Assembly (NCBI RefSeq): GCF_000025965.1
Contig: NC_006513.1
Location: 310,001 to 374,000 of the forward strand
From: Aromatoleum aromaticum EbN1
GTDB lineage: Bacteria; Pseudomonadota; Gammaproteobacteria; Burkholderiales; Rhodocyclaceae
DNA length: 64,000 nucleotides
Reading direction: 5' to 3'
Numbering within the stretch: the first letter of the stretch is position 1; each line of letters begins with the position of its first letter. A program made the translations under genes and the position numbers. Under the pieces are notes generated by a model. That model was not told the origin of the DNA and searched no databases. It saw only the letters and a program-made list of their open reading frames with translations. This document shows, piece after piece, positions 11,959 to 54,406 of the stretch.

Positions 11959-12236
11959 GGCTCGATGACCTCGCCGCGGAGCAGGAACTTGGCCATCGCG
12001 GTGGCGCCGACGAAGCCGAACAGCGCGATCAGCAGCGCGATGTCGAAGTAGATGCTCGAGCCGAAGCCGATCCCCAGCGTGAGCACGACGAGCATGCCGT
12101 TGATGTACAACGTGTCGAGGGCGAGCACCCGGTCCTGCGCCTGCGGGCCGCGCAGCAGGCGGAGCGCGGCGCATCCCATCGCGACCGAAACGCACATCAG
12201 GGCGAAGTACACGGCCCACGGAAGGACATTGTTCAT
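11955..12236 (-). CDS. mnhF: Na+/H+ antiporter subunit F
   Basis: 93 residues, three membrane helices; RLLRGPQAQDRVLALDTLYIN is typical of MnhF/MrpF, with an acidic pair in the conserved loop. MrpF relatives have been linked to cholate efflux but normally act as part of the antiporter complex. Start and stop both overlap the neighbouring genes by ATGA. Confidence 0.93.
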   Translation of the reverse strand: MNNVLPWAVYFALMCVSVAMGCAALRLLRGPQAQDRVLALDTLYINGMLVVLTLGIGFGSSIYFDIALLIALFGFVGATAMAKFLLRGEVIEP

Positions 12237-12715
12237 TCGAAGATCTCCATCAGAGGTCGTTCGTAGCGCTGCTTGACCGTTCGTATCCACGCGGCTTCGT
12301 CCTGCAGGTCGAGGATATGCAGCGTCAACACGTTGCTCTCCCTGTCGTATCCGGCCCAGACGGAGCCTGGACAGGCGGTGATGATCATCGCCAGCACGGC
12401 GAGTCCGTGCGGATCGCGCAGTTCGAGCGGAATCTTCATGAAACCGATGTGCGGCTGCCGCTTCGACGCGCCCACGATGATGCTGCCGACTGCAATGTTG
12501 GAGCGGATGATATCGACGAGGACGTCGAAGAACAGGAAGACTGCGACGTCGAAGCGCCGCGGCCACGCGGACACCGGGCGCAGGGCCGCGACGGCGAGCG
12601 TGACCAGGCCCGCGAACAACACGCCGAGCGCGATCTGCCCCGGCGCGAGGCTGTCGTTGAGGGACAGCCACATCACCAGCAGGAAGATCGGCAGAGTCGG
12701 CAGTCTGCGCTTCAT
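12233..12715 (-). CDS. mnhE: Na+/H+ antiporter subunit E
   Basis: 160 residues. Two N-terminal membrane helices (after MKRRLP and around VTLAVAALRP) followed by a cytoplasmic domain with NIAVGSIIVG, LAMIITACPGS and LHILDL, the MnhE pattern. Start overlaps the mnhD stop by ATGA, its stop overlaps the mnhF start the same way. Essential subunit of Mrp complexes by family knowledge. Confidence 0.93.
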   Translation of the reverse strand: MKRRLPTLPIFLLVMWLSLNDSLAPGQIALGVLFAGLVTLAVAALRPVSAWPRRFDVAVFLFFDVLVDIIRSNIAVGSIIVGASKRQPHIGFMKIPLELRDPHGLAVLAMIITACPGSVWAGYDRESNVLTLHILDLQDEAAWIRTVKQRYERPLMEIFE

Positions 12716-14328
12716 CGCCCAAAACCTTCCGTCGCCGCCGGCAGCACTGCTTCCACGTAGCCACTGCCTTCGAGGTATCGGGCGGTCGCGTTGAAATACG
12801 TCATTGCCGGCCCGGCGCCTCCCGCGAGCGCGACGCACAGCAGCAGCAGCGCGGTGACGGGAACGGCTTCGATCCATTGCAGCCGCGGCACGCTGCGCTC
12901 GGTGCTCCAGAAAATGCGTACCCCGATGCGCGACAATGCGACCACGCCGGCGAAACCGGAAATCAGCAGCGCGGCAATGAACAGCCCGGGGTGCGGGGCG
13001 TTGGAGCCGGGTCCCGGTTCGAAAGCGATTGCCGCGACGAGCAGCGTGAACTTCCCGACGAACCCCGACAGCGGCGGCAACCCTGTCAGCAGGACCGCGC
13101 ACAAGACGAACGCCAGGCCGAGGAAAGCCATCGCGGCCGGGATCGGAAAGCCGACGACGCTCTCGATCTGTCTGGGGTCCTGGGGATCCTGGAGCCCGAA
13201 GGCTTCGAAGCTGACCGCGAGGAGGTCAGCGGCGATCGCCCGGCCGCGCTCGGCCATTTCGATGACCATGAAGAACGCCCCGCTCGCGAGCACCGAGCTG
13301 ACGAGATAGAACAGGCCGGGACCCGTCAGCGCGTAGCCGTCGAAGCCGAATGCCGTCAGCAGCGTTCCCGACGAGACGATCACCGTGCAGCCGGCGAGGC
13401 GGTCCAGCTGCTGCGCGGCGAGCATTCCGAGCGTCCCGGTCGCGATCGTCGCGAGGCCGGTGTAGAACATCCATTCCCCGCCGAACGGAGCCGGCGCGGC
13501 GTCGCCGAGCAGCGTTTCGAAGCGCAGCAGCCCATAGACGCCGACTTTCGTCAGGATCGCGAACACGCCCGCCACCGGCGCAGCCGCCGCGCCGTAGGCG
13601 GCGACCAGCCAGAAGTTCAGCGGCCACGCACCCGCCTTGACGAGGAACACGACGCCTAGCAGCGCCGCGGCCGCATCCACCAGCGCCCGTTCGTCTCCTG
13701 TGAGGAGCGGGATGCGCAACGCCAGTTCGGCCATGTTGAGCGTGCCGGTGACACCGTAGATGAGGGACGCCGCGACCAGGAAAAGCAGCGACGCGACGAG
13801 ATTGACGACGATGTAATGCAGCCCGGCCTTCACCCGCGTCGCGCCCGAACCGTGCAGGACGAGCCCGTACGACGCGGCGAGCAGCACTTCGAAAAAGACG
13901 AACAGGTTGAACAGATCCCCGGTCAGGAAGGCGCCGCTGATCCCCATCAGCAGGAACTGAGAAAGCGGCAGAAAATGCGTGCCGGCGCGCTCCCACCGCG
14001 CGAGCGAATATACAAGCGTCGCGAGTCCCAGCGTCACGCCCAGCGTGAGCATGATCGCCGACAGGCGGTCGACGACCAGCACGATACCGAACGGCGCGGC
14101 CCAGTCGCTGAGCGCATAAACGCCGACCTCGCCGCTCCACGGCGCGGCGATCAGGCCGCCGCTCATCCCCAGCAGCATGATCGCGACGACCAGCTGCGCG
14201 ATCGTCGATGCCAGCGCGAGAATCGTGCGCGCGCGCCGCCGCGTTTCGCTGAACAGCAGCATCGCCGCTCCCGCGAACAGCGGCAGGACGACCGGCAGGA
14301 TCGGCAGATGCTGCAGCCAGCCGCTCAC
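12712..14328 (-). CDS. mnhD: Na+/H+ antiporter subunit D (NuoN/NuoM-like)
   Basis: 538 residues with about 14 hydrophobic helices; a proton-pumping subunit homologous to complex I NuoM/N. Visible is the conserved quinone/proton-path region with LFNLFVFFEVLLAASYGLV (functional Glu in FFEV) and a Lys in VFLVKAGAWPLNFWL. The start is GTG at 14328 with GAGGG upstream. Unlike every other junction of the operon, 141 bases separate it from mnhC. Confidence 0.94.
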   Translation of the reverse strand: MSGWLQHLPILPVVLPLFAGAAMLLFSETRRRARTILALASTIAQLVVAIMLLGMSGGLIAAPWSGEVGVYALSDWAAPFGIVLVVDRLSAIMLTLGVTLGLATLVYSLARWERAGTHFLPLSQFLLMGISGAFLTGDLFNLFVFFEVLLAASYGLVLHGSGATRVKAGLHYIVVNLVASLLFLVAASLIYGVTGTLNMAELALRIPLLTGDERALVDAAAALLGVVFLVKAGAWPLNFWLVAAYGAAAAPVAGVFAILTKVGVYGLLRFETLLGDAAPAPFGGEWMFYTGLATIATGTLGMLAAQQLDRLAGCTVIVSSGTLLTAFGFDGYALTGPGLFYLVSSVLASGAFFMVIEMAERGRAIAADLLAVSFEAFGLQDPQDPRQIESVVGFPIPAAMAFLGLAFVLCAVLLTGLPPLSGFVGKFTLLVAAIAFEPGPGSNAPHPGLFIAALLISGFAGVVALSRIGVRIFWSTERSVPRLQWIEAVPVTALLLLCVALAGGAGPAMTYFNATARYLEGSGYVEAVLPAATEGFGR

Positions 14329-14469
14329 TGGAGCACCCTCGCGCTACGCGCGGTCCCGCCAAGCGGGCCTGAGCGCTTCTTGGGGCGGCCCGGCGAAGTG
14401 CTCATGCCGGAGCTCCGCCAAAAGGGCAATCGGCCAGGCGTGATGCGGCCGCGGAACGCATCGGCTTCG
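14329..14469. repeat. Structured spacer inside the mnh operon, possible dispersed repeat
   Basis: 141-base spacer between mnhC and mnhD where all other mnh genes overlap. Its mnhD-proximal half (about 14340-14400) has several short inverted repeats, such as CGCGCTACGCGCG and the arms around CCGCCAAGCGGG. It may be an intergenic repeat inserted in the operon. I cannot see a second copy in this window, so this is a low-confidence call. Confidence 0.3.
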
Positions 14470-14817
14470 TCATTCCTGCTCCGGCTCCCTTCCGTCGACA
14501 TGGTCGGTGCCCGTCAGCCCGCGCGAGGCAAGCAGCACGACGAGGAACAGTGCGGTCGTCGCGAAACCGATGACGATCGCAGTGAGCACCAGCGCCTGCG
14601 GCACCGGATCGGCGTAAAACGCGGGGTTGCTGCCGTGGGACGGCGCGATCACCGGTGCACGGCCGAGATTGAGTCGTCCCATGCCGAAGATGAACAGGTT
14701 CACCGCGTAGGCCAGCAGCGACAGGCCGATGATGAGCTGGTAGGTGCGGGGGCGCAGCAGCAGGTACACGCCCGAGCCGCCCATGATCCCGATCGCCAGC
14801 GCAAGGACGATTTCCAT
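14470..14817 (-). CDS. mnhC: Na+/H+ antiporter subunit C (NuoK-like)
   Basis: 115 residues, three helices, NuoK-like; GVYLLLRPRTYQLIIGLSLL and the PVPQALVLTAIVIGFA segment are diagnostic for MnhC/MrpC. Its ATG overlaps the mnhA stop (one shared base at 14817). The hydrophilic tail after residue 105 is ordinary for the family. Confidence 0.94.
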   Translation of the reverse strand: MEIVLALAIGIMGGSGVYLLLRPRTYQLIIGLSLLAYAVNLFIFGMGRLNLGRAPVIAPSHGSNPAFYADPVPQALVLTAIVIGFATTALFLVVLLASRGLTGTDHVDGREPEQE

Positions 14818-17720
14818 CAGACGAACCCTCCGCGAGCAAGCATCGCCTTGCGGTGATGGCTGCGCAGCGACTGGTGCGCGATCGCGACCAGCATCAGCAC
14901 TGTCGCCCCGACGACGAGCAGGTAGACCCCGAGATCGAACAGCAGCACTGTCGACAGATGGATTTCACCGAGCAGGGGCAGCTTGCCGTGCCACGACTGG
15001 TTCGACAGGAACGGCTCGGCGGCGAACCACGCGCCGGCCCCGGCAATCCCGGCCCCGAGCAGCCCGAACGCAATCCAGTATTGGGGATGGATGCGCAGCC
15101 GCGACTCCACCCATACCGTGCCGCCGACGATGTACTGCAGGATCACTGCGGTCGCGAGCACGAGCCCGCCGACGAAGCCGCCGCCCGGCGCATTGTGCCC
15201 GCGCAACAGGAAGAACAGCGACACCAGCGTCGCCAGCGGCAGGAGCAGTCGCACGATCACCGCCGGCAGCATCAGGTAACCGTCCGGCAGCGGCGCGCCG
15301 GGGTCCGGCAGCCGCTCTTCACTGTCTCCGTCCGGTCCGTCCTGCTCGCTTTGCTGGCGCGGCAGCGCGACGCTCTCGGGCGCCGGGCGGAACCGGCGCA
15401 GGAGCGCATACACGGTCAGCGCGACGATCCCGAGCACGGTGATTTCGCCGAAGGTGTCGAACCCCCGGAAGTCGACGAGGATCACGTTCACGACGTTCAG
15501 GCCGCCGCCGTCCGGCAGCGCCCGTTCGACGAAGAACGGCGAGATGCCACCGTCGGTCGGAGGGCGTGTCAGGATGGCATAGGCTAGACCGGCGAGTCCG
15601 AGTCCCGCTGCGGCTGCGACGAGGGTGTCCCGGGCACGCCGTACGTGCGTGCTCAGCGGCACCCGCTCCCCCATCCGGAAACGCTCGTCGCGCCGCGGTA
15701 ACCACCGCAGCCCGAGCAGAATCAGCACTGCAGTGACGACCTCGACGGTGAGTTGCGTGAGCGCGAGATCGGGCGCGGAGAACCAGACGAAGGTCAGGCT
15801 CGTCGCAAGCCCGGCGCCCCCGGACAGGATCAGCGCCGCGAAACGGTGATGCTTGGCCTGCCACGCGGCGGCGACGGCGCACGCCGCGCCGATGACCCAC
15901 ATCAGCACGAAAGCCGGGTGGGGAGGAAGGATCGGACGCGTGCCCCACGACCACCCTGCGGTCAGCGCCGGATAAAGCGCCCCGACGACCGCGACCCCGA
16001 CCACCAGCAACAACTGCGTCTGCAGGCGGCGCGAGGACAACGCACGCAGCACACGCTCGGAACCCGACATGATTCCGGTCTGCGCCACATCGAACGCCCG
16101 CTTGCCATCGAAACGGCCGAGGAGCGGCGCGCGGATCCCCGGATAGCGCCGCAGCAGAATGGTCAGCAGGATTCCGCCGGCGAGCGCGCCGAAGCTCATC
16201 AGCACGGGCAGGTTGAACCCGTGCCACACCGCCAGGCTGTAGGCGGGCGCATCGGCGCCGAGGATCGCCGTCGTCGCCGTCTTCAGGAACGGACCGACAG
16301 TGTGCGCCGGGAAAACGCCGACCAGCAGGCACATCAGCACCAGCAGCGCGCTCGGCAGCAGCATCCAGCGCGTCGGTTCGTGCGGCGCGCGCGGCAGGTC
16401 GGTCGCCTTCGGGCCGAGGAAGACTTCGTCGATGAAGCGCAGCGAATAGGCGACGCTGAACATCCCTGCGACCGTTGCCGCGAGCGGCAGCCCGATCCGC
16501 TGCACGTCGGGGCGCTGCAGGAAGACGGTTTCGGAGAAGAACATCTCCTTCGACAGGAAGCCGTTGAGCAGCGGCACGCCGGCCATCGACGCGGCAGCGA
16601 CGAACGCCAGCGTCGCCGTGAGCGGCATTGCGCGGTAAAGACCGGACAGACGTTTCAGGTTTCGCGTGCCCGTCTCGTGGTCGACGATGCCGGCCGCCAT
16701 GAACAGCGAAGCCTTGAACGCGGCGTGATTGACGATGTGGAACACTGCTGCGACCAGCGCCAGTTGCGTGTTCATCCCGAGGAGCAGCGTGATGAGGCCG
16801 AGATGGCTGATCGTCGAGTACGCGAGCACGCCCTTCATGTCTTCCTGGAACAGCGCCAGATAGGCGCCGATCACCAGCGAGAACAAGCCGGCGCCGCCGA
16901 CGATCCAGAACCATGCGTCGGTCCCCGAGAGCACGGGCCACAGCCGCGCCAGCAGGAACACTCCGGCCTTGACCATCGTCGCCGAGTGCAGATAGGCCGA
17001 AACCGGCGTCGGCGCCGCCATCGCGTGCGGCAGCCAGAAATGGAACGGAAACTGCGCGCTCTTCGTCAGCGCGCCGAACGCGATCAGCGTGAGCGCCGCC
17101 GGATACCAGGGATGCGAACGGATCACCGCCCCCGAATCCAGCACGACATCCAGATCGTAGCTTCCCGCCATATGGCCGAGCAGGAGCACGCCGCCAAGCA
17201 GCGAAAGTCCGCCCGCTGCCGTGACGGTGAGCGCCATGCGCGCGCCCCGGCGAGCATCCACGCGGTGGTGCCAGTACGCGATCAGCATGAACGAGGCGAG
17301 GCTCGTCAGCTCCCAGAACATCGTCATCTGGATCAGGTTGCCCGACAGTACCACGCCGAGCATCGCGCCCATGAATGCGAGAAAAAAGGAGAAGAACCGC
17401 GGCACCGGATCGGCCGGCGACATGTAATAGCGCGCATATACGACGACGAGGGTCCCCATCGCGGCGACCAGCATCGCGAACAGCCACGCGAAGCCGTCGA
17501 GCCGCAGCGAGAAGCTCAGGCCGAGTTCCGGGGCCCACGGCAGCGACGCACGCACGACGCCTCCGTCGGCGACCTGCGGGTACAGGCTCGCAGTCAGCAG
17601 GGTCGTCGCGAGCGCAACCAGCCCGGCGAGCCATGCTTCGGCGTTTCGGGCGTTCGACGGGAGGAAGGCGGCGCACAGGCTGCCGGCGAACGGCAGCAGT
17701 ATGATCAGGAGCAGAGTCAT
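14817..17720 (-). CDS. mnhA: Na+/H+ antiporter subunit A fused to subunit B
   Basis: 967 residues, first gene of the antiporter operon. About 1-520 is the NuoL-like ion-translocating part with [35 protein letters not shown] and [10 protein letters not shown]. About 570-780 is the C-terminal MrpA extension, and the last part (from about 825, with a [14 protein letters not shown] motif) is an MrpB domain. The A-B fusion is standard in Gram-negative 'group 2' Mrp operons. GGAG lies five bases before the ATG. The complex exports Na+ or K+ in exchange for protons, for pH and salt homeostasis. Confidence 0.95.
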
Positions 17721-18392
17721 TTTGCTCCAATGCTAACCCGTAATTGCGTATCCCGGCGAGCCACCATGCCGTAATGCTAAAAGACGCGCACAGACGCAGT
17801 ACCCCTCGTCCTCGCCTGCGCCCTGATACGTTGATCGAAAGCCTTCGACCCCGTACGGGTAGCGGATTTCAACGGCAGACTTCAGAAGGACAAGCGAGAA
17901 AAACCTGATCGAGAGGCTCATCGCTGGCTCGTCGACATGACGTCGAGGACGAGCAGGAATCCAGAGACGACTGGAAGATGAACCGAGGGCGCAACTAGAA
18001 CAACGGCGGGAAAGCAAAGCATGATCGTTTCCCTCATAGGCGGAAACGCCCTCTCTTAGCAGTATTTTTACGCCCCCCGCAAGCTGTGGCGAAATCCGGG
18101 ACAAGAAATAATTCTACCATTGAACTTGGTAGAAAGTCTAGTCCCATACGACTTCCAAAAGTCAAAAACATGGAGGGATCATGAGGGCAAGACTTCGAAG
18201 GTAGGAGTGCGCGACGACGATGCGCAGCAGATCGCCAATCAACACATGATAGCCAGTGGGTGCGGTACTTAGCCGTTTGAGCTTATGTGCAAGTGGTGTT
18301 CCGGAAGGAAATATGAGAGAAATAGCCAATGGCATTACTCAGAAGACAGGAACTTACTAACTCTCAAGAAACAGAACTGACGGCAGCGGTTT
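17721..18392. other. Gene-free flank of the IS cluster
   Basis: 672 bases without a convincing gene, visibly less GC-rich than the mnh operon. A perfect 7-base inverted repeat, TCTACCA (18113-18119) and TGGTAGA (18127-18133), forms a short hairpin. The mnh promoter must lie near 17725-17850. The right part probably includes the non-coding end of the IS110-type element; no boundary could be placed because that family has no terminal repeats. Confidence 0.45.
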
Positions 18393-45289: not shown

Positions 45290-46738
45290 ATGGCACAGGT
45301 GAAGTTTTTCAGCGGAGAGCAGGTTCCGCTGGAAATGCACAAGGTACGCATCGTACAGAAGCTGAACCTTCCGCCGGTGGAACACCGGCTCAAGGCGATC
45401 ACCGAAGCAGGCAACAACACTTTCCTGCTGCAGAACAAGGACGTCTTCATGGACATGCTCACCGACAGCGGTGTCAATGCCATGAGCGATCAACAGCAGG
45501 CCGCGATGCTGATCGCCGACGACAGCTACGCCGGCAGCGCGACCTACACCCGGCTCGAAAGCAAGCTCCGGGAAATCTTCGGCATGGCCTATTTCCTGCC
45601 CGCCCATCAGGGGCGCGCCTGCGAAAACATCCTGTCGCAAGTGCTGGTATCGCCGGGCTCGATCGTGCCGATGAACTATCACTTCACGACCACCAAAGCG
45701 CACATCACCCTGAACGGCGGGGTCATCGAAGAGCTGGTCTCGGATGCCGGCCTCGAAGTCGTCAGCGTCCATCCCTTCAAAGGGAACATGGATATCGCCA
45801 GGCTGTCGGCGGTCATCGAAGAGCACGGCAGCAACAAGATTGCGTTCGTCCGCATGGAAGCGGGCACGAACCTCATCGGCGGACAACCGTTCTCGCTCGA
45901 GAACCTCACCAACGTGCGTCGCGTGTGCGACAAGCACGACGTCCTGCTCGTGCTCGACGCGAGCCTGCTCGCCGATAACCTCCACTTCATCAAGAACCGC
46001 GAGGAAAGCTGCAAGGATCTGAGCATTCGCGAGATCACGCGCAAGATGGCGGACCTGTGCGACATCATCTATTTCTCGGCACGCAAGCTCGGCTGCGCAC
46101 GCGGCGGCGGCATCTGCATCAGGACCGAGGAGCTGTACCGCAGGATGCGCGGGCTGGTCCCGCTGTACGAAGGCTTCCTCACGTACGGCGGGATGTCCGT
46201 GCGCGAAATGGAAGCGCTGACGGTCGGCCTCGACGAAACGATGGACGAGGACGTGATCAACCAGGGGCCGCAGTTCATCGGCTTCATGGTCGACGAGCTG
46301 CAAAAACGCGGCGTTCCCGTCATCACGCCGGCCGGCGGCCTCGGTTGCCACCTCAACGTCATGCAGTTCCTCGAGCACGTCCCGCAGGCGCAATACCCTG
46401 CCGGCGCGCTCGCCTCGGCGCTGTATATCGCCAGCGGCATACGCGGCATGGAGCGCGGCACGCTCTCCGAGCAGCGCGACCCCGACGGCAACGAAGTCTT
46501 GGCCAACATGGAACTGGTCCGGCTGGCGTTGCCGCGCCGGGTATTCACGCTGTCGCAGGTCAAATACGCGATCGACCGGATCTCGTGGCTGCACGAGAAC
46601 CGCCACCTCATCGGCGGCCTCGTGTTCACCGAAGAGCCTGAAATCCTGCGTTTCTTCTATGGCCGGCTGAAGCCCGTTTCGGATTGGCAGCAAAAGCTGT
46701 TCGAGAAATTCCGCGAGGACTTCGGCGACAGCCTGTAG
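45290..46738 (+). CDS. Tryptophanase / tyrosine phenol-lyase family enzyme
   Basis: 482 residues, PLP beta-eliminating lyase. Family features: TDSGVNAMSD near residue 60, ADDSYAGSATYTRLE, LPAHQGRACEN, RLALPRRVFT near the C-terminus, and the Schiff-base Lys in FSARKLGCARGGG. In characterised tryptophanases and tyrosine phenol-lyases that Lys is followed by Asp or Asn (KKD) rather than Leu. It could thus act on a different amino acid; choice between indole- and phenol-forming activity cannot be made. CCGGAGG precedes the ATG. No leader peptide or transporter is beside it. Confidence 0.85.
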   Translation: MAQVKFFSGEQVPLEMHKVRIVQKLNLPPVEHRLKAITEAGNNTFLLQNKDVFMDMLTDSGVNAMSDQQQAAMLIADDSYAGSATYTRLESKLREIFGMAYFLPAHQGRACENILSQVLVSPGSIVPMNYHFTTTKAHITLNGGVIEELVSDAGLEVVSVHPFKGNMDIARLSAVIEEHGSNKIAFVRMEAGTNLIGGQPFSLENLTNVRRVCDKHDVLLVLDASLLADNLHFIKNREESCKDLSIREITRKMADLCDIIYFSARKLGCARGGGICIRTEELYRRMRGLVPLYEGFLTYGGMSVREMEALTVGLDETMDEDVINQGPQFIGFMVDELQKRGVPVITPAGGLGCHLNVMQFLEHVPQAQYPAGALASALYIASGIRGMERGTLSEQRDPDGNEVLANMELVRLALPRRVFTLSQVKYAIDRISWLHENRHLIGGLVFTEEPEILRFFYGRLKPVSDWQQKLFEKFREDFGDSL

Positions 46739-46837
46739 GACTGGGCCCAGTAACCGGCGGCCGTGCGGAAGGGGTGGCGGCCGCCGCAGCGGCCCCGTCG
46801 GCCGGATGCCTCCTGTTCTCGAGCGGCCATTTCAGTC

Positions 46838-47200
46838 TCAGGACCAGCCGCGGAACCACTGTGCGGCGAAAACGATCCCGACGACGAACGCCGTCGCGGT
46901 GGCGACAAGCACCGCGCCTGCCGCGATGTCCTTGCATGCGCCGATCTCCGCATGCCGTTCCGGGTGAAGATGATCGGCCAGCGTCTCGAGTGCGGTATTG
47001 ACGAGTTCGGTCACCATGACGAAACCGGCCGTCAGCGCAAGCACCGTCCACCATACGAGAGGCGGCCGGGCCACCAGCAGAACGCACAGCACGCCTCCGC
47101 CAGCCAGAACATGCACGCGAAAGCTCCGCTCCCGACTGATCGCGAGCTGCAGGCCATGCAGCGCGAAACCGAGGCGTTCGCGGAAACAACGGCCCTTCAT
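46838..47200 (-). CDS. dgkA: Diacylglycerol kinase (prokaryotic DgkA)
   Basis: 120 residues with three membrane helices and the DgkA core ELVNTALETLADHL..KDIAAGAVLVA (Glu catalytic/metal ligands). Recycles diacylglycerol to phosphatidate at the inner membrane. Last gene of the minus-strand run; its ATG overlaps the PAP2 stop by ATGA. Together the two enzymes interconvert diacylglycerol and phosphatidate, which could matter for a lipid-bounded compartment (see findings). Confidence 0.93.
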   Translation of the reverse strand: MKGRCFRERLGFALHGLQLAISRERSFRVHVLAGGGVLCVLLVARPPLVWWTVLALTAGFVMVTELVNTALETLADHLHPERHAEIGACKDIAAGAVLVATATAFVVGIVFAAQWFRGWS

Positions 47201-47880
47201 TCGCGCTCGCCGTTGCGGATTTTCACGAGCTCCGCTGCGCCCCACCACCCCAGCGCCCACGCGGCCCCCGCAGCCCAACCGGCGAGAACGTCGGTCGGCC
47301 AGTGCACGCCCAGATAGATCCGGCTGAGACCGACGATCACGGTCAGCGCCAGCGCGATCGACATCACATAGAGCTTGAGCCCACGCCGCGGCACCAGCCG
47401 CGCCAGCAAGGCTCCGAGTGTCAGATACACGACTGCCGAGAGCATTGCATGCCCGCTCGGAAAGCTTGCCGAGATGACGAAGTCGCCATGCGGAAAGATA
47501 TCCGGCCGGGGCCGGGAGAAAGCACCTTTCAGCAAGACGGAAGCCAGCGTCCCGCTGCTCGTCCCGAACAGCACGAACATCGCCATGCGGTGCCGCTTGG
47601 CCAGAAGGAGAAAGACCGTCACCGCCGCAACCACCAGGCCCAGCACGCTGAAGCTGCCCAGCGCCGTGATGTCCCGCGCGACCGCTTCGATCCATGGCGG
47701 ACCCAAGGGAGCGTCGGCGTCCCCGGGCGCCCGCAAGGCCATCAGGAGCGCGTTGTCGAGGGCGTGCGTATCCCCTTCGACAACGTCTTCCGCGACCTCG
47801 ATGAAGATCCACAGCGCGGACGTCACGGCAGCGACTATGCCGAGTATCCGCGGCTCCAGCCAGTTCCGAAGAAAACGCAA
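47197..47880 (-). CDS. PAP2-family membrane phosphatase
   Basis: 227 residues, about six helices. The three PAP2 motifs are intact: KGAFSRPRPD (KX6RP), PSGHAMLS (PSGH) and SRIYLGVHWPTDVLAG (SRX5HX3D). Dephosphorylates phosphatidate, phosphatidylglycerol phosphate or undecaprenyl pyrophosphate at the outer face of the inner membrane. TTG start at 47880 with GGAGG about eight bases upstream. Lies 83 bases after the ATPase gene and is coupled to dgkA. Confidence 0.9.
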   Translation of the reverse strand: MRFLRNWLEPRILGIVAAVTSALWIFIEVAEDVVEGDTHALDNALLMALRAPGDADAPLGPPWIEAVARDITALGSFSVLGLVVAAVTVFLLLAKRHRMAMFVLFGTSSGTLASVLLKGAFSRPRPDIFPHGDFVISASFPSGHAMLSAVVYLTLGALLARLVPRRGLKLYVMSIALALTVIVGLSRIYLGVHWPTDVLAGWAAGAAWALGWWGAAELVKIRNGERE

Positions 47881-47963
47881 ATTATTGCCTCCGACGAACC
47901 ACCGCCGGGCAGGTTGAGGTTCCTGCCGGTTCGGTTCCTTCTGGATTTGCGCTGCCGCGGCGT

Positions 47964-50048
47964 TCAGACGCTGCTGCGGCGCAAGGCGTTGAGCAGGATC
48001 GCGATCGTGCTGCCGTTGTGCAGCATGGCCGTGGTGATCGGCGACAGCAGCCCGGCCGCCGCGGCGGCGAGAATCCCCGTGTTGAGTCCTACCGTCAGTC
48101 GATAGTTGGAACCGATGAGCGCCATCGTGCCGTTTGCAAGGGCCTTGGCGTCGGCCACACAGGCGATGTCGTCCTCGAGCAGCGCCACGTCGGCCGTGAG
48201 GCGCGCAATATCCGCCCCCTTTTGCATTGCAATGCCGACATGGGCACCGGCGAGCGCAGGAGCGTCGTTGATGCCGTCGCCGATAAAGGCGATGCGCGCG
48301 CCTTGCCGCGAAAGTTCTTCGACGATCCGCGCCTTGTCCTCCGGCAGCAGCTCGGCATGGCAGCCATCGAGCCCGAGGTGCTCCGCAAGTTCTTCGGCCC
48401 GCTCGCGGTGGTCCCCGGTGAGCATCAATATCCGCCTGGCGCCCAATTCGCGCAGCCGGAGAATGGTCGCCGCGCTGTTGGCGCGTACTTCGTCCTTCAG
48501 CGCCAGCACGCCGAGGAACCTGCCGCCGAAGCCGATGTAGAGCAGCGTCTTGCCTTCCTCGTAAAGTCGGTCGACGGTCTCGAGATGTGCCGAAATGTCG
48601 ATCCCTTCGTCATCGGCGACGAAATGTCGCGAGCCGATGACGATGCGCTGGCCATCGATGACGCTCGCGACGCCGTGGGCGACGATGAACTGCACTTCCT
48701 GGTGATCGAAATGCTGCCCGTGTATCGCGCGCGCCGCGGTGACGACCGCATGTGCGAGTGGATGGACGTAGTGCTCCTCGACCGAAGCCGCGAGGCACAG
48801 CAGATCTTCCGCGGTGTAGGTGCTGTCGAACGCGATCGAGTCGGTCACGGCGAGCGTGCCTGCGGTCAGCGTGCCGGTCTTGTCGAAGATGAAGGTGTCG
48901 GCATCGGCGAGACGCTCGAGGGCGCTGCCCCCCTTGACGAGGATTCCGGCACGCCCCGCCCCGTACATCGCTGACTTGAAAGCGACCGGCGTCGCGAGCT
49001 TGAGCGCGCAGGAATAGTCGGCCTGCAGCACCGACGCGGCCCGACGCCAGTCGCCCGAAATAAAATACGTGGCACCCGCCAGCCCCAGCACGATCGGCAC
49101 GAGACGGTCGGCGAGGCGCGCGGCGTCGAGTTGTGCCGCGCTTTTCGCCGTCAGCGACTGTTCGACGTAGTCGGCGATGCGTGCAGCGGCCGTGCGGCTG
49201 CCGACCTGTTCCGCATACACTCTCAGGCGGCCCTCTTCGACCAGCGTCCCGGAAAGAACTGCGTCGCCCCGCCCCTTCGCTACCGCGGCGCTCTCGCCCG
49301 TCATCGTCGCTTCATTGACGGTGGCTTCGCCTCCCAGCACAGTGCCGTCAACGGGAACGACAGCGCCGTCCGCGACGATCACCGTATCGCCGACCGCAAC
49401 TTCACCGGCCGCAACCAACACTTCCTGCCCGCCGCGCTCGATCCAGATCTCGTCGCTTGCCGGACGCAAAAGGTGTTTGAGCAGATCGTCCGAACGCCGG
49501 GCGATGGAAATCTCGAGGTACTCCCCCAACGCCAGCATGAAAGTGGTCGTATTGGCGGCCGTATAGTCACCACGCGCGAGCGAGATCGATACCGCCATCG
49601 CCTCCAGCACATGCGACGAAATGCCGTTGGCGACGAGGTCCTCCAGCGCATGCCTGAGCAGGGGCGCGGCCGCCCCGAGCGTCACCGGAAGCTGCAGCGG
49701 CTGCGGCAGAAAACGCGTGACGGCCAGTGTCACGAGACTCGCCACCATCGGCGCCGGTCCGCCCTGCTCGACAACGGCCGATCCTCGTGCGGCCGGAATC
49801 GGCGCGGACAAGGCTGCGAGCGCCGTGCGCAAGGTCTCGAGTTCGACCTCCTTGTCGTCGAAATGCAGCACCAGCGAACGTGCCGCGCGATTGACTCGCG
49901 CTTCGAGCACGCCGGGGATGTTTTCGGCCGCCCGCTCGATCGTCCTGGCATCGGTCGGCGTGCCCTTCCGGCAGCGGTAGCGAAAGCGCGCGCGCCCGCG
50001 CGTGCGGTGGGCGAGTTCCAGCGTGCCGAACCACGAACCCGAAGTCAT
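47964..50048 (-). CDS. fezB: P1B-type metal ATPase with SCALK motif (FezB-like, P1B-6)
   Basis: 694 residues. N-terminal HMA_2-like domain of about 80 residues beginning HRTRGRARFRYRC, with no CxxC pair. Membrane helices, then the actuator TGE loop (ATMTGESAAV), the metal-site motif SCALK at 346-350 in place of the CPC/SPC/CPH of common types, the phosphorylation site DKTGTLT (D389), HPLAHAV of the nucleotide domain and GDGINDAPAL. SCA in this position is the P1B-6 class, whose known members (FezB) sit in ferrosome membranes and are thought to load iron. Translationally coupled (ATGA) to the small gene upstream. Confidence 0.9.
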   Translation of the reverse strand: MTSGSWFGTLELAHRTRGRARFRYRCRKGTPTDARTIERAAENIPGVLEARVNRAARSLVLHFDDKEVELETLRTALAALSAPIPAARGSAVVEQGGPAPMVASLVTLAVTRFLPQPLQLPVTLGAAAPLLRHALEDLVANGISSHVLEAMAVSISLARGDYTAANTTTFMLALGEYLEISIARRSDDLLKHLLRPASDEIWIERGGQEVLVAAGEVAVGDTVIVADGAVVPVDGTVLGGEATVNEATMTGESAAVAKGRGDAVLSGTLVEEGRLRVYAEQVGSRTAAARIADYVEQSLTAKSAAQLDAARLADRLVPIVLGLAGATYFISGDWRRAASVLQADYSCALKLATPVAFKSAMYGAGRAGILVKGGSALERLADADTFIFDKTGTLTAGTLAVTDSIAFDSTYTAEDLLCLAASVEEHYVHPLAHAVVTAARAIHGQHFDHQEVQFIVAHGVASVIDGQRIVIGSRHFVADDEGIDISAHLETVDRLYEEGKTLLYIGFGGRFLGVLALKDEVRANSAATILRLRELGARRILMLTGDHRERAEELAEHLGLDGCHAELLPEDKARIVEELSRQGARIAFIGDGINDAPALAGAHVGIAMQKGADIARLTADVALLEDDIACVADAKALANGTMALIGSNYRLTVGLNTGILAAAAAGLLSPITTAMLHNGSTIAILLNALRRSSV

Positions 50049-50428
50049 GCCTCGTCGCGGCGCTCCGCTTCTGCTTCGGCCTTGAGGTCGGCCATCTGCT
50101 CCTTCATCTCCTCGAAGCCGCCGACCACGTTCGAATAGAGCTTGATGCCGGTTTTCACCAGCTTGGCGCGCAGTTCTTCGTCACTGAGCACGTACGCGGC
50201 CGCGGCCCCGATTACCGCGCCCATCACGAACTGTTCGTACTGGCCCGACTTGAGCCGGCCGGGAAGCCCACGCAGGAAATCCTCGTCGACCAGTCCGGCG
50301 CCGAAACCGCCCGCATGATGGCCCTGCGCGCCGAAACCGCTGTAATGCGGGTGTTCACCCCAGGATCCGCCGGCGTAAGCCGCGGCCTTGTCGCGGTGCT
50401 TCGCCTTCTTATGCTTTTTCTTGCCCAA
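50045..50428 (-). CDS. Small membrane protein, Lys/Gly/His-rich N-terminus (YtxH-like)
   Basis: 127 residues. Very basic start (GKKKHKKAKHRDK), then a Gly/His/Tyr-rich stretch (HPHYSGFGAQGHHAGGFG), one hydrophobic helix at about 68-82 (VMGAVIGAAAAYVL) and a charged helix ending EAEAERRDEA. The His-rich part could bind metal. TTG start with AAGGAGA in front. ATGA overlap with the ATPase. No family function known; resembles small scaffold-like proteins of fez clusters in position, not in proven homology. Confidence 0.75.
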   Translation of the reverse strand: MGKKKHKKAKHRDKAAAYAGGSWGEHPHYSGFGAQGHHAGGFGAGLVDEDFLRGLPGRLKSGQYEQFVMGAVIGAAAAYVLSDEELRAKLVKTGIKLYSNVVGGFEEMKEQMADLKAEAEAERRDEA

Positions 50429-50753
50429 GAGCCTTCTCCTTGTTGTCTTTGCGCGCGGGTTTGCGCAACAGGTAATCGACGGCGACTACCGCGGCCGCGC
50501 CGCCGGTGACAGCCACTACGGTCGTCCGGTAATCGCGACGCTGCAGGGCGTCTGCTGCCGTCCCGCCTGCCGCGAGGGCGATTCCGCCTTGCAGTGCCTG
50601 ACACAGGATGGCTTTGCCGGCATTCGGCGCCGTGGCGCTTGCCGCCCCACTCGGCAGCGCTGCAAGGAGGCCGGTGGCGACGAATCCGCGGACAAAATTC
50701 GCCGACGCGGGATCTGTGGCGGGGGCCGGATAGGGGCGCAGCCGCCGCTTCAC
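50409..50753 (-). CDS. Small membrane protein of the fez-like operon
   Basis: 114 residues: basic/Pro-rich start (MKRRLRPYPAP), two hydrophobic Ala/Gly-rich helices (GFVATGLLAALPSG and about 75-95), basic Lys-rich tail. No recognised family. Overlaps the genes on both sides (start ATGA with the upstream gene, stop 20 bases into the next), so it is made with them. Confidence 0.7.
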   Translation of the reverse strand: MKRRLRPYPAPATDPASANFVRGFVATGLLAALPSGAASATAPNAGKAILCQALQGGIALAAGGTAADALQRRDYRTTVVAVTGGAAAVVAVDYLLRKPARKDNKEKALGQEKA

Positions 50754-51112
50754 GACTGGTCCTCGTCGGGCTTGTCGGCTTGCGCGCGTTGACCGGCGGA
50801 CTCGGCCCTACCGGGTGCGGGTTTGCGCCGGCGGCGTGGAGCCGCCTTCGATTGCGGTGCTGCCTTGGACTCCGCCTGGTTTGGCGCCGCTTGCGCCTGG
50901 GCTGCCGTTTCGAGCGGCGGTTCGGCGTCTGTGGCGAGCTTCGCGCGCAAGTGGGCCGACGAATGTTCGATCGCGCTAAGACTCGACACGGTCGCCTCCC
51001 GCAGGCGCTCCTGGGCTTTGTCGAGCGTGGCGCGGGTCTTGCCCGCCTTGAACAGCCGGATGCCCAAGGCACCGGTCACCAGGCCGACGGCGAATGGAAG
51101 CAAGGGGTACAT
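50750..51112 (-). CDS. Small membrane protein with basic Ala-rich tail
   Basis: 120 residues. One N-terminal membrane helix (YPLLPFAVGLVTGALGIRLF), then a charged helix and a long Ala/Pro/Lys/Arg-rich, probably disordered tail (SKAAPRRRRKPAPG). AAGGAGGG precedes ATG 51112, two bases after the ferritin-like stop. Unknown family. Disordered tails of this kind are common in organelle-coating proteins, which is speculation here. Confidence 0.72.
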   Translation of the reverse strand: MYPLLPFAVGLVTGALGIRLFKAGKTRATLDKAQERLREATVSSLSAIEHSSAHLRAKLATDAEPPLETAAQAQAAPNQAESKAAPQSKAAPRRRRKPAPGRAESAGQRAQADKPDEDQS

Positions 51113-51113
51113 G

Positions 51114-51815
51114 TCATCCCTCCTTTTCTTGTTGACTGAGTTTGCGCTTGCCCTTGACGAACAGAACGCCTGCCCCACCCGCCACGAGCCCGGCGATCAT
51201 CGCGGGGCGAGTGTTGCGCAGGAGCGGGCCGACGACGCCGATGGCGTGGTGCTGGCTCCCAAGCACGGCGAAGGTTTTCTCGAGAAAATCGGCGAATAGA
51301 CCATGCTGGATATACGCCTGTTCGGGTGCGACGCCCTGCCGCGCATGAAGCGCTTCCTGCCGCAGCGCATCGGCCACGGCGCGTTGCAGCATCGGCAGAT
51401 GACGTTCCAGCGCGCTCGCCTGCAAACGCTGGAAGGTCCGGCGCACTTGCGGCTCGGCGATTCCCGTCAGGAGCGATTCGTAAAGGCGCACCCGTCCGAT
51501 CTCGCCCGCCACCGCCCGCTCGCAGTTGGCGCGCCAGTCGGGCGCCAACGCGGTTTCGAGAGGAAATGGATCGAGCGGGAGCGGCACGCCGAAGCGCCGT
51601 GCGAGCGTGGAAAGGGTCGCCGTATGCTTCTCTTCCGATTTAGCGAGATCGGCGAACGGAGCACGCGGCCCGAACGCCTCGACCATCTTCGTGTAAAAGG
51701 CCCGCGCCGCATAGGCGTCGTAGAGCGCAATGCGCAGCCCCTGCTGCAGCGACGCAAACGGCGCAGCGGGGTCGATTCGCCGGCTGCGCAGGATCGCTTC
51801 GTCGTAGTTACGCAC
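51114..51815 (-). CDS. Ferritin-like protein with a C-terminal membrane helix
   Basis: 233 residues. Four-helix bundle of the ferritin-like superfamily: helix 1 ALYDAYAARAFYTKMV (a Glu is not obvious, Asp may replace it), helix 2 DLAKSEEKHTATL (ExxH), helix 3 AVAGEIGRVRLYESLL (Glu), helix 4 ASALERHLPML (ExxH). A 20-residue hydrophobic segment near the end (MIAGLVAGGAGVLFV) plus basic tail would anchor it to a membrane, unusual for ferritins. Start GTG 51815 (GGGAG seven bases before) or TTG 51818; overlaps the upstream gene. Likely handles iron for the ATPase-bearing compartment. Confidence 0.78.
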   Translation of the reverse strand: MRNYDEAILRSRRIDPAAPFASLQQGLRIALYDAYAARAFYTKMVEAFGPRAPFADLAKSEEKHTATLSTLARRFGVPLPLDPFPLETALAPDWRANCERAVAGEIGRVRLYESLLTGIAEPQVRRTFQRLQASALERHLPMLQRAVADALRQEALHARQGVAPEQAYIQHGLFADFLEKTFAVLGSQHHAIGVVGPLLRNTRPAMIAGLVAGGAGVLFVKGKRKLSQQEKEG

Positions 51816-52143
51816 CAAGCAGCTCCCGATGCTTGGTCACCAGTATGTCCAGCAGTGTTTCCGCCGCGCTCGAGCGCACGCCGCCCAGCAGATCCGGCCA
51901 GGCGGCGGAGGGAATCGTGCTCGTGTCGTATTCGATCGTGCAGGAGCGGGCCAGAATATTGAGCTTGACCGAATGCACGCCGGAGATGCTGTCGAGCGCA
52001 CGCCCGAAGCGTTTTGCGTCGCCGATTGCCGCGAGCCGAGCCGAGTCCAGATCGCCCTCGAGCTTGAGCCGTATGCGCCCCGGGATGTGGTGCGCGATAC
52101 GCAGGTAGCCGGTGAAGCGTTGCAGTTGATCGAATTCGTCCAT
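51808..52143 (-). CDS. HMA_2-like domain protein
   Basis: 111 residues. The motif HHIPGRIRLKL and the later SGVHSVKLNILARSCTIEYD form a ferredoxin-like beta-alpha-beta fold resembling HMA domains but with no CxxC; the same PGR-x-R pattern occurs in its neighbour and in the N-terminus of the P1B ATPase. In fez systems such proteins are thought to work with FezB. No membrane segment. Start by ATG 52143; a GTG five codons upstream has no better signal. Confidence 0.75.
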   Translation of the reverse strand: MDEFDQLQRFTGYLRIAHHIPGRIRLKLEGDLDSARLAAIGDAKRFGRALDSISGVHSVKLNILARSCTIEYDTSTIPSAAWPDLLGGVRSSAAETLLDILVTKHRELLGA

Positions 52144-52169
52144 GGGGGATTCCAACACGGTATTTCGAG

Positions 52170-52685
52170 CTATTTCAGCAAGTGGCGCCGGTGCACGGCC
52201 ATGTGAATCGCAAGCAGCGCCGTGAACACGCCTCCGCTGGCCGCGTGCAGATGCTTGTTCCCCACCGCGGCCAGCGCAAGCGACGCACCGAGACTGCCGA
52301 GCATGCCGATCTTCGAGTAGGTGTTGAGCCGCCGCGCGATTGCACGCCTCGAACCGAGCTTCCAGCGCCCGGGGGAAGGCGGCTGCACCGCGTTCGGCGC
52401 GCCCCGCACAGTCTCCGGGACTCCTCTCAGCACCTTCCCGGCCGCGGTCGTCACCTGCGCTTCCATCGTCGCCCTGTCGATCCGGGCGGTGTCGTAGCGC
52501 ATCAACAGGCTGCCGGCGTTGATGCTCCCTTCGACGGCCAGAGTCCCATCGAGCCCCTCCAGCAGCGCTTGCAGGCGAGCATGTCGATCGGGTTCACGCA
52601 ATGCCCGGTTGCGAAGCCGCAGCCGGCCCGGTATCGAGGAAACGATGCAATTCATGCGAGTCAACTGTGTCGATATTTCGAACAT
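52170..52685 (-). CDS. HMA_2-like protein with C-terminal membrane segment
   Basis: 171 residues. HMA_2-type domain (SSIPGRLRLRNRAL, then a strand GSLLMRYDTARID), a Pro/Arg linker, and two hydrophobic segments at the C-terminus (GMLGSLGASLALAAVG and GVFTALLAIHMAVH), ending HRRHLLK. First gene of the fez-like operon. Start uncertain: ATG 52685 or 52655, neither with a clear ribosome site. No cysteine metal pair. Confidence 0.72.
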   Translation of the reverse strand: MFEISTQLTRMNCIVSSIPGRLRLRNRALREPDRHARLQALLEGLDGTLAVEGSINAGSLLMRYDTARIDRATMEAQVTTAAGKVLRGVPETVRGAPNAVQPPSPGRWKLGSRRAIARRLNTYSKIGMLGSLGASLALAAVGNKHLHAASGGVFTALLAIHMAVHRRHLLK

Positions 52686-52842
52686 TATGCTCGACTTTAC
52701 CGCTCGATGCCCGGGGCGAAGGCGTTCCGGGGTGAAGGACAAACCGGGTCTGCCCGGGTGGCCCAGCGACCATATCGGGCGGTTGGCGCTTCGAGCGCCA
52801 TCCGGCACCGATCCGCGACGCTGGAACCGAAAGACCTGAGCA

Positions 52843-53769
52843 TCATTCCACGCCCTGGCCCAGCATCCTGCCGTTGACGACCATACCGTACAGGTTCACG
52901 CCGTCGTTCGCGTGGTACTTGTCGCGCGTCTTTTCGACCGACCCGTCGATCAGCCGCGGGTCCTGCGGCCGCTCGTGGCTGTTCATGAAAGCCGCGACGT
53001 GCCAGGCGTCCTCGTCCGACAGCGTGCCCCCCTTGCCCAGCGGCATGTTCTCCTTGATGAAAGCCGCGGCAGTGTTGATTCGGTGCATCCCGGCTCCCCA
53101 GTTGAACGAGTCGGGCCCCCACAGCGGCGGGAAGATGAAGTTTTCGCCCGATTTCTGGCCCTCGCCATCGGCGCCGTGACATATCGCGCACTGGTCGGCG
53201 TAGATCTGTCTGCCCTTCGCGAGATCGAAGCCGCCTGCCGGCGGCGGCACTTCCGGATAGGCACGGCCGGGCAGCTCCTGTCCGGTCGGCGCCCCCATCG
53301 CGAGCCAGTACGAATATGCAGTAAGCGCAGCGATGACGCGGCCTTCGGCTTCGGGCGCCTTGCCGTTCATGCTGAACTGGAAACAGCCTTGCAGGCGCTC
53401 GGTGTAGCTGTTAACCCTGTCGTTTTTCTTGCGATAAGCCGGGTACATCGTGTAGGCGGCCCACAGCGGCGCGGAGTTCGCCCTTCGCCCCTGTTCGAGG
53501 TGGCAGTTGCCGCAGCTGAGCCCGTTGCCGACGTACTCCGGCGCGCGGTTCTTCGTATCCACGAAGATCGCGCGCCCTTCCTGAACCAGCTTGCCAAAAG
53601 CGTTGTCCGGGATTTCCCTTTCCAACGGCGGCCTGAAATAGCGCTCGCTCGCGGGCGAACCCGGGCGGGTGAGAATCTGCGACTGGTCTTCCGCGATTTC
53701 GGCGCCGTGCGCCACGAAGGAGGCAAAGCCGAAGGCGCTGAGCAGCACCGCCGTGCACGAGGTTTTCAT
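52843..53769 (-). CDS. tsdA: Diheme cytochrome c, TsdA-type thiosulfate dehydrogenase
   Basis: 308 residues with signal peptide. Two haem c motifs, CGNCH (near residue 87) and CAICH (near 200). The NGLSCGNCH context, the PAYRKKNDRVNSYTERLQGCF segment and the SMNGKAP that follows match TsdA, in which the Cys of GCF is an axial ligand of haem 1. TsdA oxidises thiosulfate to tetrathionate or runs in reverse. AGGAG precedes the ATG; ten bases after the partner cytochrome. Downstream (73 bases) of a tetraheme-free c4-like gene, upstream of the fez-like operon. Confidence 0.85.
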   Translation of the reverse strand: MKTSCTAVLLSAFGFASFVAHGAEIAEDQSQILTRPGSPASERYFRPPLEREIPDNAFGKLVQEGRAIFVDTKNRAPEYVGNGLSCGNCHLEQGRRANSAPLWAAYTMYPAYRKKNDRVNSYTERLQGCFQFSMNGKAPEAEGRVIAALTAYSYWLAMGAPTGQELPGRAYPEVPPPAGGFDLAKGRQIYADQCAICHGADGEGQKSGENFIFPPLWGPDSFNWGAGMHRINTAAAFIKENMPLGKGGTLSDEDAWHVAAFMNSHERPQDPRLIDGSVEKTRDKYHANDGVNLYGMVVNGRMLGQGVE

Positions 53770-53779
53770 GTCTGCGCTC

Positions 53780-54406
53780 CTATTTCTTCAGGCCGGCGAA
53801 GTATTTCGACACGGCCTCGATCTCGTCGGCTGTCAGGCTGCGCCCGATATGCCCCATGAGATCGTTCGGATCGTTCTTGCGCGTGCCCTGTTGCCAAGCT
53901 GTCAGCTGAGCGGCGAGGTACTGCGCGGGCTGGCCGGCGAGCGGCGGAAAGGCATTGCCGACTCCGCGTCCACCCGGCGCGTGACAGGCCACGCATTCCG
54001 GGATGTTGCGATCCCACGCGCCGCGCAGCGCCAGCGTTTCTCCCGGCTCCTGCACCTCGGCCGCCTTGCCGACCGGCGGCACCTCGGGATAAGCCTTGGC
54101 GGCAAGCATCGCGGCCAGAGCGTCGATCTCTTCGCGCATCAGCGCCGAAGCAATCGGCTGCATGAGCGGATTCGCGCGAGCGCCGGAAGCAAAGTCGGCG
54201 AGCTGTTTCCTGATGTAGTCGGCGGGCAAGCCCGCGAGTCGCGGGAAGCCGCCCGCTTCCATACCCTCCCCCTGCGCGCCGTGGCAGGTTGCACATGCCA
54301 CGGCAGCGGGATCCGCGCCGCCGCGGCTGTAAACGTCGGCTGGAGCCTGCGCGTGCACCGCACAAGCGAGGAAAAGCCCGACGATAGGCCCATATCTGAG
54401 AATCAT
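53780..54406 (-). CDS. tsdB: Diheme cytochrome c4-like protein (TsdB-type)
   Basis: 208 residues, signal peptide ending AHA, two haem motifs CATCH (near 38) and CVACH (near 131) with the paired Met ligands in PLMQP and DLMGH. Size and duplicated fold are cytochrome c4/TsdB-like. It would take electrons from TsdA to the respiratory chain. GGAGG sets the ATG; immediately precedes tsdA, forming a tsdBA operon. Confidence 0.83.
   Translation of the reverse strand: MILRYGPIVGLFLACAVHAQAPADVYSRGGADPAAVACATCHGAQGEGMEAGGFPRLAGLPADYIRKQLADFASGARANPLMQPIASALMREEIDALAAMLAAKAYPEVPPVGKAAEVQEPGETLALRGAWDRNIPECVACHAPGGRGVGNAFPPLAGQPAQYLAAQLTAWQQGTRKNDPNDLMGHIGRSLTADEIEAVSKYFAGLKK

Follow-up and report, generated by a model that had tools for sequence, protein, structure and literature searches.

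A nine-gene cluster of Aromatoleum aromaticum EbN1 as a probable, enlarged ferrosome operon

Does Aromatoleum aromaticum EbN1 carry the genes for a ferrosome? The question is raised by a minus-strand block of nine genes at positions 46838-52685 of a 64,000-nucleotide stretch of its genome (NC_006513.1, positions 310,001 to 374,000; hereafter the window), which an initial annotation made from the letters of the sequence had read as a ferrosome (fez) operon ending in lipid enzymes. In order, the block encodes two HMA_2-like proteins (genes 1 and 2), a ferritin-like protein (gene 3), three small proteins (genes 4 to 6), a P1B-type ATPase (gene 7), a PAP2 phosphatase (gene 8), and a DgkA-type lipid kinase (gene 9). 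We conclude that this cluster is very probably a fez operon of the six-gene Rhodopseudomonas palustris kind, enlarged to nine genes in this Aromatoleum lineage. The reading rests on gene content and order, on homology, on the clade to which the ATPase belongs, on the modelled fold of the ferritin-like protein, and on the linkage of iron genes to the cluster in relatives. Beyond the six-gene fez core, the window cluster contains the ferritin-like gene and the PAP2-DgkA pair.

To our knowledge, ferrosome formation has been demonstrated in few species. Aromatoleum strains are culturable denitrifiers, and the cluster makes them promising candidates for iron organelles outside the groups described so far. 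Its conserved six-gene core can be tested gene by gene, and the ferritin-like protein together with the lipid phosphatase and kinase are candidate add-ons that would connect the loading of iron with the supply of membrane.

A Conserved Six-Gene Core

We built profiles from the window proteins and used them to search the open reading frames (ORFs) of 85 loci, which comprise 80 from named genomes (the best 80 of at least 564 confirmed relatives) and five from plasmids. The profiles for HMA2a (gene 1), HMA2b (gene 2), and the N-terminus of FezB (gene 7) overlap because these sequences are related, and each ORF was thus given to its best-scoring profile. The exact order HMA2a-HMA2b-smA-smB-YtxH-FezB, which corresponds to genes 1, 2, 4, 5, 6, and 7 of the window, is present at 32 of the 85 loci. 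The order HMA2b-Ftn-smA-smB-YtxH-FezB, where Ftn is the ferritin-like gene, occurs at 15, and the same order with HMA2a added occurs at 8. All nine genes are found at two loci (L033 and L034), and the remaining loci are partial, reordered through ORF overlap, or end at a contig edge. Because the order recurs in related loci, it is not a product of chance. The description as a nine-gene cluster applies to one sub-clade only, the last two genes being at fez in 2 of the 85 loci and in congeners.

The closest named locus, among the best 80 of at least 564, is that of Aromatoleum buckelii, whose ATPase is 98% identical to gene 7 over its full length. Within the genus, 12 of 17 genomes (EbN1 included) have a match to gene 6; among 44 further genomes from the family and order, one does. 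At an E value of 1e-105, gene 7 is matched in 2 of 369 genomes of a class sample, and at 1e-150 in 5 of 200 genomes of a phylum sample (EbN1 included in both). Besides Aromatoleum, relatives come from Thauera, Azoarcus, Magnetospirillum, Azospirillum, Rhodoblastus, Rhodocyclus, Rubrivivax, Ectothiorhodospira, Azotobacter, Azomonas, Aeromonas, and other genera, and FezB homologues also reside on plasmids of Azospirillum, Arcobacter, Cereibacter, and a Vibrio. The occurrence of related clusters in Azospirillum, Azotobacter, Azomonas, Magnetospirillum, Aeromonas, and several purple phototrophs raises the possibility that diazotrophs and phototrophs commonly make ferrosomes. Separately, the neighbourhood of the fez cluster in distant lineages includes a DUF2325 protein (L021, L024, L065, and others, an 11-locus cluster).

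Passages of two reports bear on the system most similar to the window. R. palustris CGA009 has six fez genes on record and is reported to make ferrosomes (PMC12016538), and its genes rpa2333-2338 have been implicated in metal ion transport and, as iron genes also do, show a drop in low light (PMC6879726). When 341 genomes of one alphaproteobacterial family were searched with gene 7, 16 passed an E value of 1e-105, four of them with pumps of the GTGIR type discussed below. Four genomes of one phototrophic genus (L139-L142) carry an ATPase that is 68-69% identical to gene 7 over its full length, in an operon of exactly six genes whose order is that of window genes 1, 2, 4, 5, 6, and 7. In these genomes, as at the 32 loci described above, homologues of the small proteins stand next to a FezB homologue in the order seen in the window. 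The genus of L139-L142 was assigned as follows.

Photosynthetic reaction-centre genes are present in all five genomes of this genus that we considered (L139-L142 and G786), and in one of them the M protein of the reaction centre agrees at all but 7 of 307 positions with that of PDB entry 6z5r, which we take to be an R. palustris complex. These two observations form a strong, if unproven, case that the genus is Rhodopseudomonas. In the two genomes of about 5.3 Mb, the ATPase gene is located 47-48% of the way along the chromosome, with pufM at 30-31%, positions that would fit RPA2333 and RPA1528 if, as we presume, these are numbered along about 4,836 genes. G730 has similar spacing, with the ATPase at 31% and pufM at 15%. 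If these Rhodopseudomonas-like genomes are representative of CGA009, its six genes RPA2333-2338 would share the order of window genes 1, 2, and 4-7, and the window would differ by the ferritin-like gene after HMA2b and by the terminal PAP2-DgkA pair.

The ATPase Belongs to the FezB Clade

The initial annotation had called gene 7 a P1B ATPase with a SCALK metal motif, and both profile and motif confirm this. The protein has an HMA_2-like N-terminus that lacks CxxC, a DYSCALK metal helix (with SCALK inside 'ADYSCALKLATP'), and DKTGT. We take P1B-6 to be the class name for pumps with the [SA]C..K or SCALK metal motif. In a careful tree of 35 rows, the 21 FezB rows, whose metal helix carries [SA]C..K, form a single clade with support of 100/100, and the FezB rows are likewise one clade in a quick tree of 47 rows. 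This clade stands apart from Escherichia coli CopA and ZntA, two copper-type pumps of the EbN1 genome, CSC-type pumps, and a TPCP pump on pSymA of Sinorhizobium meliloti. The last of these carries no annotation in its record there and is probably Nia, a pump that presumably has the TPCP motif. Thus, the ATPase does not group with any of these P1B rows, a set in which named P1B-3 and P1B-4 rows are not included.

In the genome search, FezB-clade rows reach at least 412 bits, GTGIR-type rows 357-373, and other pumps at most 285 among the matches listed. Within the EbN1 genome, the three P-type ATPases that match gene 7 next best are 35-38% identical to it. None of the FezB ORFs scored above 1000 bits has a CxxC in its first 110 residues. 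Because the loci were chosen with a pattern that includes [SA]CA, the frequency of SCALK among them is biased, and 3 of 91 rows scored were not FezB.

The GTGIR-type P1B ATPases form the sister clade of FezB in the 35-row tree and are about 31-37% identical. Their metal helix carries GTGIR and no Cys, unlike the SCALK of the window ATPase. This replacement is seen at L154 (3899-9381), a Gloeothece plasmid on which DUF5132 and HMA_2 genes lie near the pump, and at L125-L128.

Two further FezB loci have unusual reading frames. In a gammaproteobacterium (G494; L032, also L143:6960-9045), the FezB gene is broken by a stop into two frames, just upstream of which lie frames that by eye resemble FeoC and FeoB. 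On an Arcobacter plasmid (L024:6639-8752), the HMA-like N-terminus and the ATPase core are separate ORFs, whereas they form one ORF on a closely similar plasmid stretch (L021).

The Lipid Enzymes Travel with the Cluster in One Sub-Clade

The identification of the last two genes as PAP2 and DgkA is upheld by Pfam (Table 1), and gene 8 carries KGAFSRPRP, PSGH, and SRIYLGVHWPTD stretches. The pair is found at fez in L033 and L034 and in the congeners L162-L164, with L163 and L033 probably representing a single genome. In a further congener (G008), PAP2 is located about 2.1 kb from gene 6.

It is a serious possibility, falling somewhat short of an even chance, that genes 8 and 9 are neighbours with a housekeeping job in lipid metabolism, such as undecaprenyl or lipid phosphate recycling, and stand outside the iron system. 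An 83-nt gap follows the ATPase gene, the pair accompanies fez at just 2 of the 85 loci, and at five loci of the other Aromatoleum fez type (L035, L037, L040, L165, and L166) the fetched flanks yielded neither gene. However, in L164 and L034 all nine genes are together although their surroundings differ: the cytochrome c and beta-eliminating lyase genes that flank the cluster in the window were not detected within the fetched stretches of about 4-7 kb per side, and the gaps before PAP2 are just about 41 and 51 nt, respectively. Also pointing away from a housekeeping role, gene 9 is one of three DgkA copies in the EbN1 genome, and at an E value of 1e-40 the gene 8 PAP2 is unmatched in the five congeners that lack a gene 6 match; it is unmatched as well in G012, which has the other fez type.

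The arrangement in L164 and L034 perhaps reflects a single relocation event. Because the block stays together where both flanks differ, the comparison argues that the nine genes form one unit in the sub-clade of the window. What this linkage argues for is the unity of the nine genes, not an action of the lipid enzymes on an organelle.

A Ferritin-Like Protein with a Decaying Di-Iron Site

Gene 3 is numbered here from GTG 51815, with TTG 51818 as an alternative start. Its match to the Pfam Rubrerythrin family (19.6 bits) lies below the cut-off of 22.8. The AlphaFold2 model is confident over residues 1-160, which form a four-helix bundle, and Foldseek matches it mostly to ferritins, bacterioferritins, and related proteins with probabilities of 0.97-1.00, although the best E value is 1.6e-3 and none is 0.001 or lower. 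Based on the model, we are confident in predicting a four-helix ferritin-like fold. The protein had been described as membrane-tailed as well as ferritin-like, and it is the second part of this description that stands. The tail is only weakly hydrophobic, with predicted local distance difference test (pLDDT) values below 50 and no 19-residue stretch that reaches 1.6 on the Kyte-Doolittle scale, a weak test that finds nothing in genes 1 and 6 and one helix only in the ATPase. A membrane anchor for this protein is a guess.

The ferritin-like gene follows HMA2b at 31 of the 32 loci that have it, and at the exception (L053) an over-long ORF sorts ahead of HMA2b. On the FezB tree its presence requires about eight changes, six of them forced by supported branches, although L066 and L111, correctly labelled but represented by a wrong minus-strand ORF, are misplaced in this tree and the count may be off. 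Passages of the ferrosome literature make no mention of a ferritin-like gene in fez clusters. The idea that absence of HMA2a is linked to presence of the ferritin-like gene was rejected. Of 81 loci, 14 have both, 18 the ferritin-like gene only, 38 HMA2a only, and 11 neither (Fisher p 0.004), but independent tree pairs give a median p of 1.

We consider it unlikely that gene 3, even with its ferritin-like bundle, encodes a functional ferroxidase acting on iron at the membrane of the granule. Ligand residues were counted in 33 rows besides the window, one of which is a fragment and counts as a gap at most sites; a separate ferritin-like alignment holds 29 of 34 rows, leaving out L021, L024, L033, and both L046 fragments. 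In favour of such an enzyme, the window keeps E61xxH64 in helix 2, E105, and H139, and the helix-1 Glu is kept in 27 of the 33 other rows. However, the helix-1 position is Ala34 in the window itself, and it is Ala in L033 and L097, Gly in L034, and Gln in L047 and L085. In addition, E61xxH64, E105, and H139 are shared by only 16, 22, and 21 of the 33 rows, and the usual ExxH is missing from its place in helix 4. The full E, ExxH, E, ExxH di-iron ligand set is consequently not found in gene 3, given Ala34 and a helix 4 that lacks ExxH. The ligands of both helix 2 and helix 3 are lost at five loci of the other Aromatoleum fez type, namely L035 (titled Azoarcus), L036, L037, L039, and L040.

Other Glu and His residues are better kept. 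E154, H157, and H171 are each present in 30 of 33 rows, with two Arcobacter rows lacking all three, and E179 is present in 32. Because the helix-1, -2, and -3 ligands are patchily kept while these four residues are well kept, we read the classical di-iron site as in decay and another Glu/His set as retained.

The HMA_2-Like and Small Proteins

The initial annotation had noted that the two HMA_2-like proteins lack Cys pairs. This proved correct, since genes 1 and 2 score just above the Pfam HMA_2 cut-off (Table 1) and have one Cys each and no CxxC. Gene 1, which starts at ATG 52685 or ATG 52655, has a PGRLRLR motif and a weakly hydrophobic C-terminal part. Gene 2 has an HHIPGRIRLK motif and carries its lone Cys within LARSCTIEYD. 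This Cys is kept in 95% of 79 rows, and CxxC occurs in 2 of 78 member ORFs. Across the whole 4.73-Mb genome there are three HMA_2 matches, and these are gene 1, gene 2, and the N-terminus of gene 7.

Genes 4 and 5 have no significant Pfam match. By hydropathy, gene 4 has one N-terminal hydrophobic stretch followed by a tail of Pro, Ala, and charged residues. Gene 5 is Gly/Ala-rich and is predicted, at low confidence (mean pLDDT of the model 66), to form three helices; its alignment consists of the window and 35 of 77 homologues. Gene 6 combines a Gly/Ala-rich stretch with a charged tail.

Iron Context and Points Against a Fez Assignment

FeoB is encoded in the fetched flanks of 20 of 88 loci, in all 20 on the same strand as FezB; depending on the genus, it lies upstream or downstream of FezB. 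FTR1 occurs at 5 of the 88 loci, and so does one type of TonB receptor. On a Cereibacter plasmid, FeoA and TonB receptors surround the FezB gene. This plasmid (pORIO2, L022) is typed as conjugative, and its FezB, HMA_2, FeoA, sigma factor, FecR, and TonB receptor genes make up a mobile iron island.

An FNR-like site with at most one mismatch precedes the first fez gene at 13 of 81 loci, compared with 0.5 expected from stretches inside FezB, a count that includes near-copies (three in Aeromonas and two in Rhodoblastus). The loci concerned are L054, L056, L057, L065, L069, L070, L072, L086, L091, L096, L105, L141, and L142, and the sites suggest anaerobic control of fez in these relatives. Fur-like sites with at most six mismatches are present upstream at 8 of 82 loci, compared with about one in shuffled sequences.

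Several observations weigh against the assignment of the window cluster as fez. FeoB was not found beside the window's own cluster. The window has no clear FNR site, as the best candidate has two mismatches and overlaps the start codon, and no clear Fur site, as the best has 8 mismatches of 19. The link to R. palustris depends on an inferred genus, the comparison having been made through L139-L142, and the fifth Rhodopseudomonas-like genome (G786) carries another FezB type that is 41% identical.

Two other described systems differ from the window. The fez genes of Desulfovibrio magneticus, which we take to be FezA, FezB, and FezC, have the FezB pump in common with it. In passages of one report, FezB is a putative ferrous iron transporter and FezC of D. 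magneticus a DUF4405-related cytochrome (PMC11334425). In contrast, DUF4405 has no match in the Aromatoleum genome, which is a further point against. Clostridioides difficile FezA/FezB can be likened to the window by description only: passages of another report state that the FezB transporter is required for ferrosomes and is Fur-repressed (PMC12574912), whereas the window has no convincing Fur site. A search of a limited collection of papers found none linking Aromatoleum with ferrosomes, nor one linking YtxH with a P-type ATPase and iron.

It is quite improbable that the cluster is an ordinary metal-efflux operon that forms no organelle, in which the P1B ATPase would export surplus metal over the cytoplasmic membrane with the small proteins as chaperones or scaffold, because, although the profile match of the ATPase (TIGR01525) is that of a normal P1B pump and HMA_2 and DUF5132 genes also lie near the sister-clade pump of L154, the gene set equals that of the Rhodopseudomonas-like genomes, the N-termini of the high-scoring FezB ORFs lack CxxC, FeoB neighbours in relatives point to iron uptake, and no regulator is detected by Pfam among the nine genes. 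We therefore retain the reading as a fez-like cluster, to which the ATPase clade and the conserved six-gene order lend their support.

A Possible Mechanism

By analogy with described ferrosomes, the FezB ATPase of a fez operon would pump cytoplasmic Fe(II) into small membrane vesicles, where it would collect in the lumen. The HMA_2 proteins, which lack Cys pairs, and the helical proteins rich in Gly and Ala may serve as assembly or membrane-shaping factors and not as metal carriers. The ferritin-like protein might handle or nucleate iron at the vesicle membrane. Alternatively, because its di-iron site is incomplete, it could now be structural. PAP2 and DgkA could interconvert phosphatidic acid and diacylglycerol and thereby tune the vesicle membrane. 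Cells would draw on the iron store as the supply of iron changes, most likely while growing anaerobically.

We speculate further, as a doubtful possibility, that the nine-gene ferrosome joins two ways of storing iron, a protein fold and a lipid vesicle, in one operon. In this arrangement, a ferritin-derived protein would be placed at the membrane, E154, H157, H171, and E179 would replace the decaying di-iron site, and a dedicated PAP2/DgkA pair would supply vesicle lipid or remodel it.

Organization of the Locus

An ORF check of the window recovered all nine genes that the initial annotation had assigned to the block (Table 1). That annotation had also described most junctions as overlapping through ATGA. 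Five of the eight junctions do overlap (genes 2/3 by 8 nt, 4/5 by 4, 5/6 by 20, 6/7 by 4, and 8/9 by 4), but ATGA is present at two of them only and GTGA at one. The other three junctions have gaps of 26 nt (genes 1/2), 1 nt (3/4), and 83 nt (7/8).

Table 1. Genes of the fez-like cluster, with their positions in the window and the evidence for each assignment
Gene	Product	Position	Strand	Evidence	Loci with homologue
1	HMA2a	52170..52685	-	Pfam HMA_2 31.4 bits (cut-off 30)	51/85
2	HMA2b	51808..52143	-	Pfam HMA_2 34.1 bits (cut-off 30)	77/85
3	Ferritin-like (predicted), weakly hydrophobic tail	51114..51815	-	AlphaFold2 model, Foldseek	32/85
4	Small protein smA	50750..51112	-	Hydropathy	81/85
5	Small protein smB	50409..50753	-	No Pfam match	77/85
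6	YtxH-like small protein	50045..50428	-	YtxH 25.6 bits (cut-off 37.5), DUF5132 20.4 bits (below cut-off)	85/85
7	FezB-type P1B ATPase	47964..50048	-	TIGR01525 472.7 bits; E1-E2 ATPase and Hydrolase (Pfam); clade 100/100	85/85
8	PAP2 phosphatase	47197..47880	-	PF01569 83.9 bits	2/85
9	DgkA-type lipid kinase	46838..47200	-	PF01219 (DAGK_prokar) 97.1 bits	2/85

A scan of 46500-53100 for sigma-70-like promoters found none, with 0.6 expected. The possibility of a recent foreign island, as judged by base composition, was rejected, since the G+C fraction (GC) of the operon is 0.65-0.66 compared with 0.63 in the adjoining 2-kb steps and a range of 0.54-0.71 over the window. Nevertheless, the flanks of the cluster in L164 and L034 differ from those in the window.

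Two cytochrome c genes, one of them SoxA/TsdA-like, lie directly upstream of the cluster on the minus strand (52843-54406). They accompany it in L162 and in L163/L033 and are probably not members of the cluster, because they are absent from the fetched flanks of L164 and L034. Elsewhere in the window, the strongest AT skew (0.22-0.26) extends over three successive 2-kb steps at 12001-18000.

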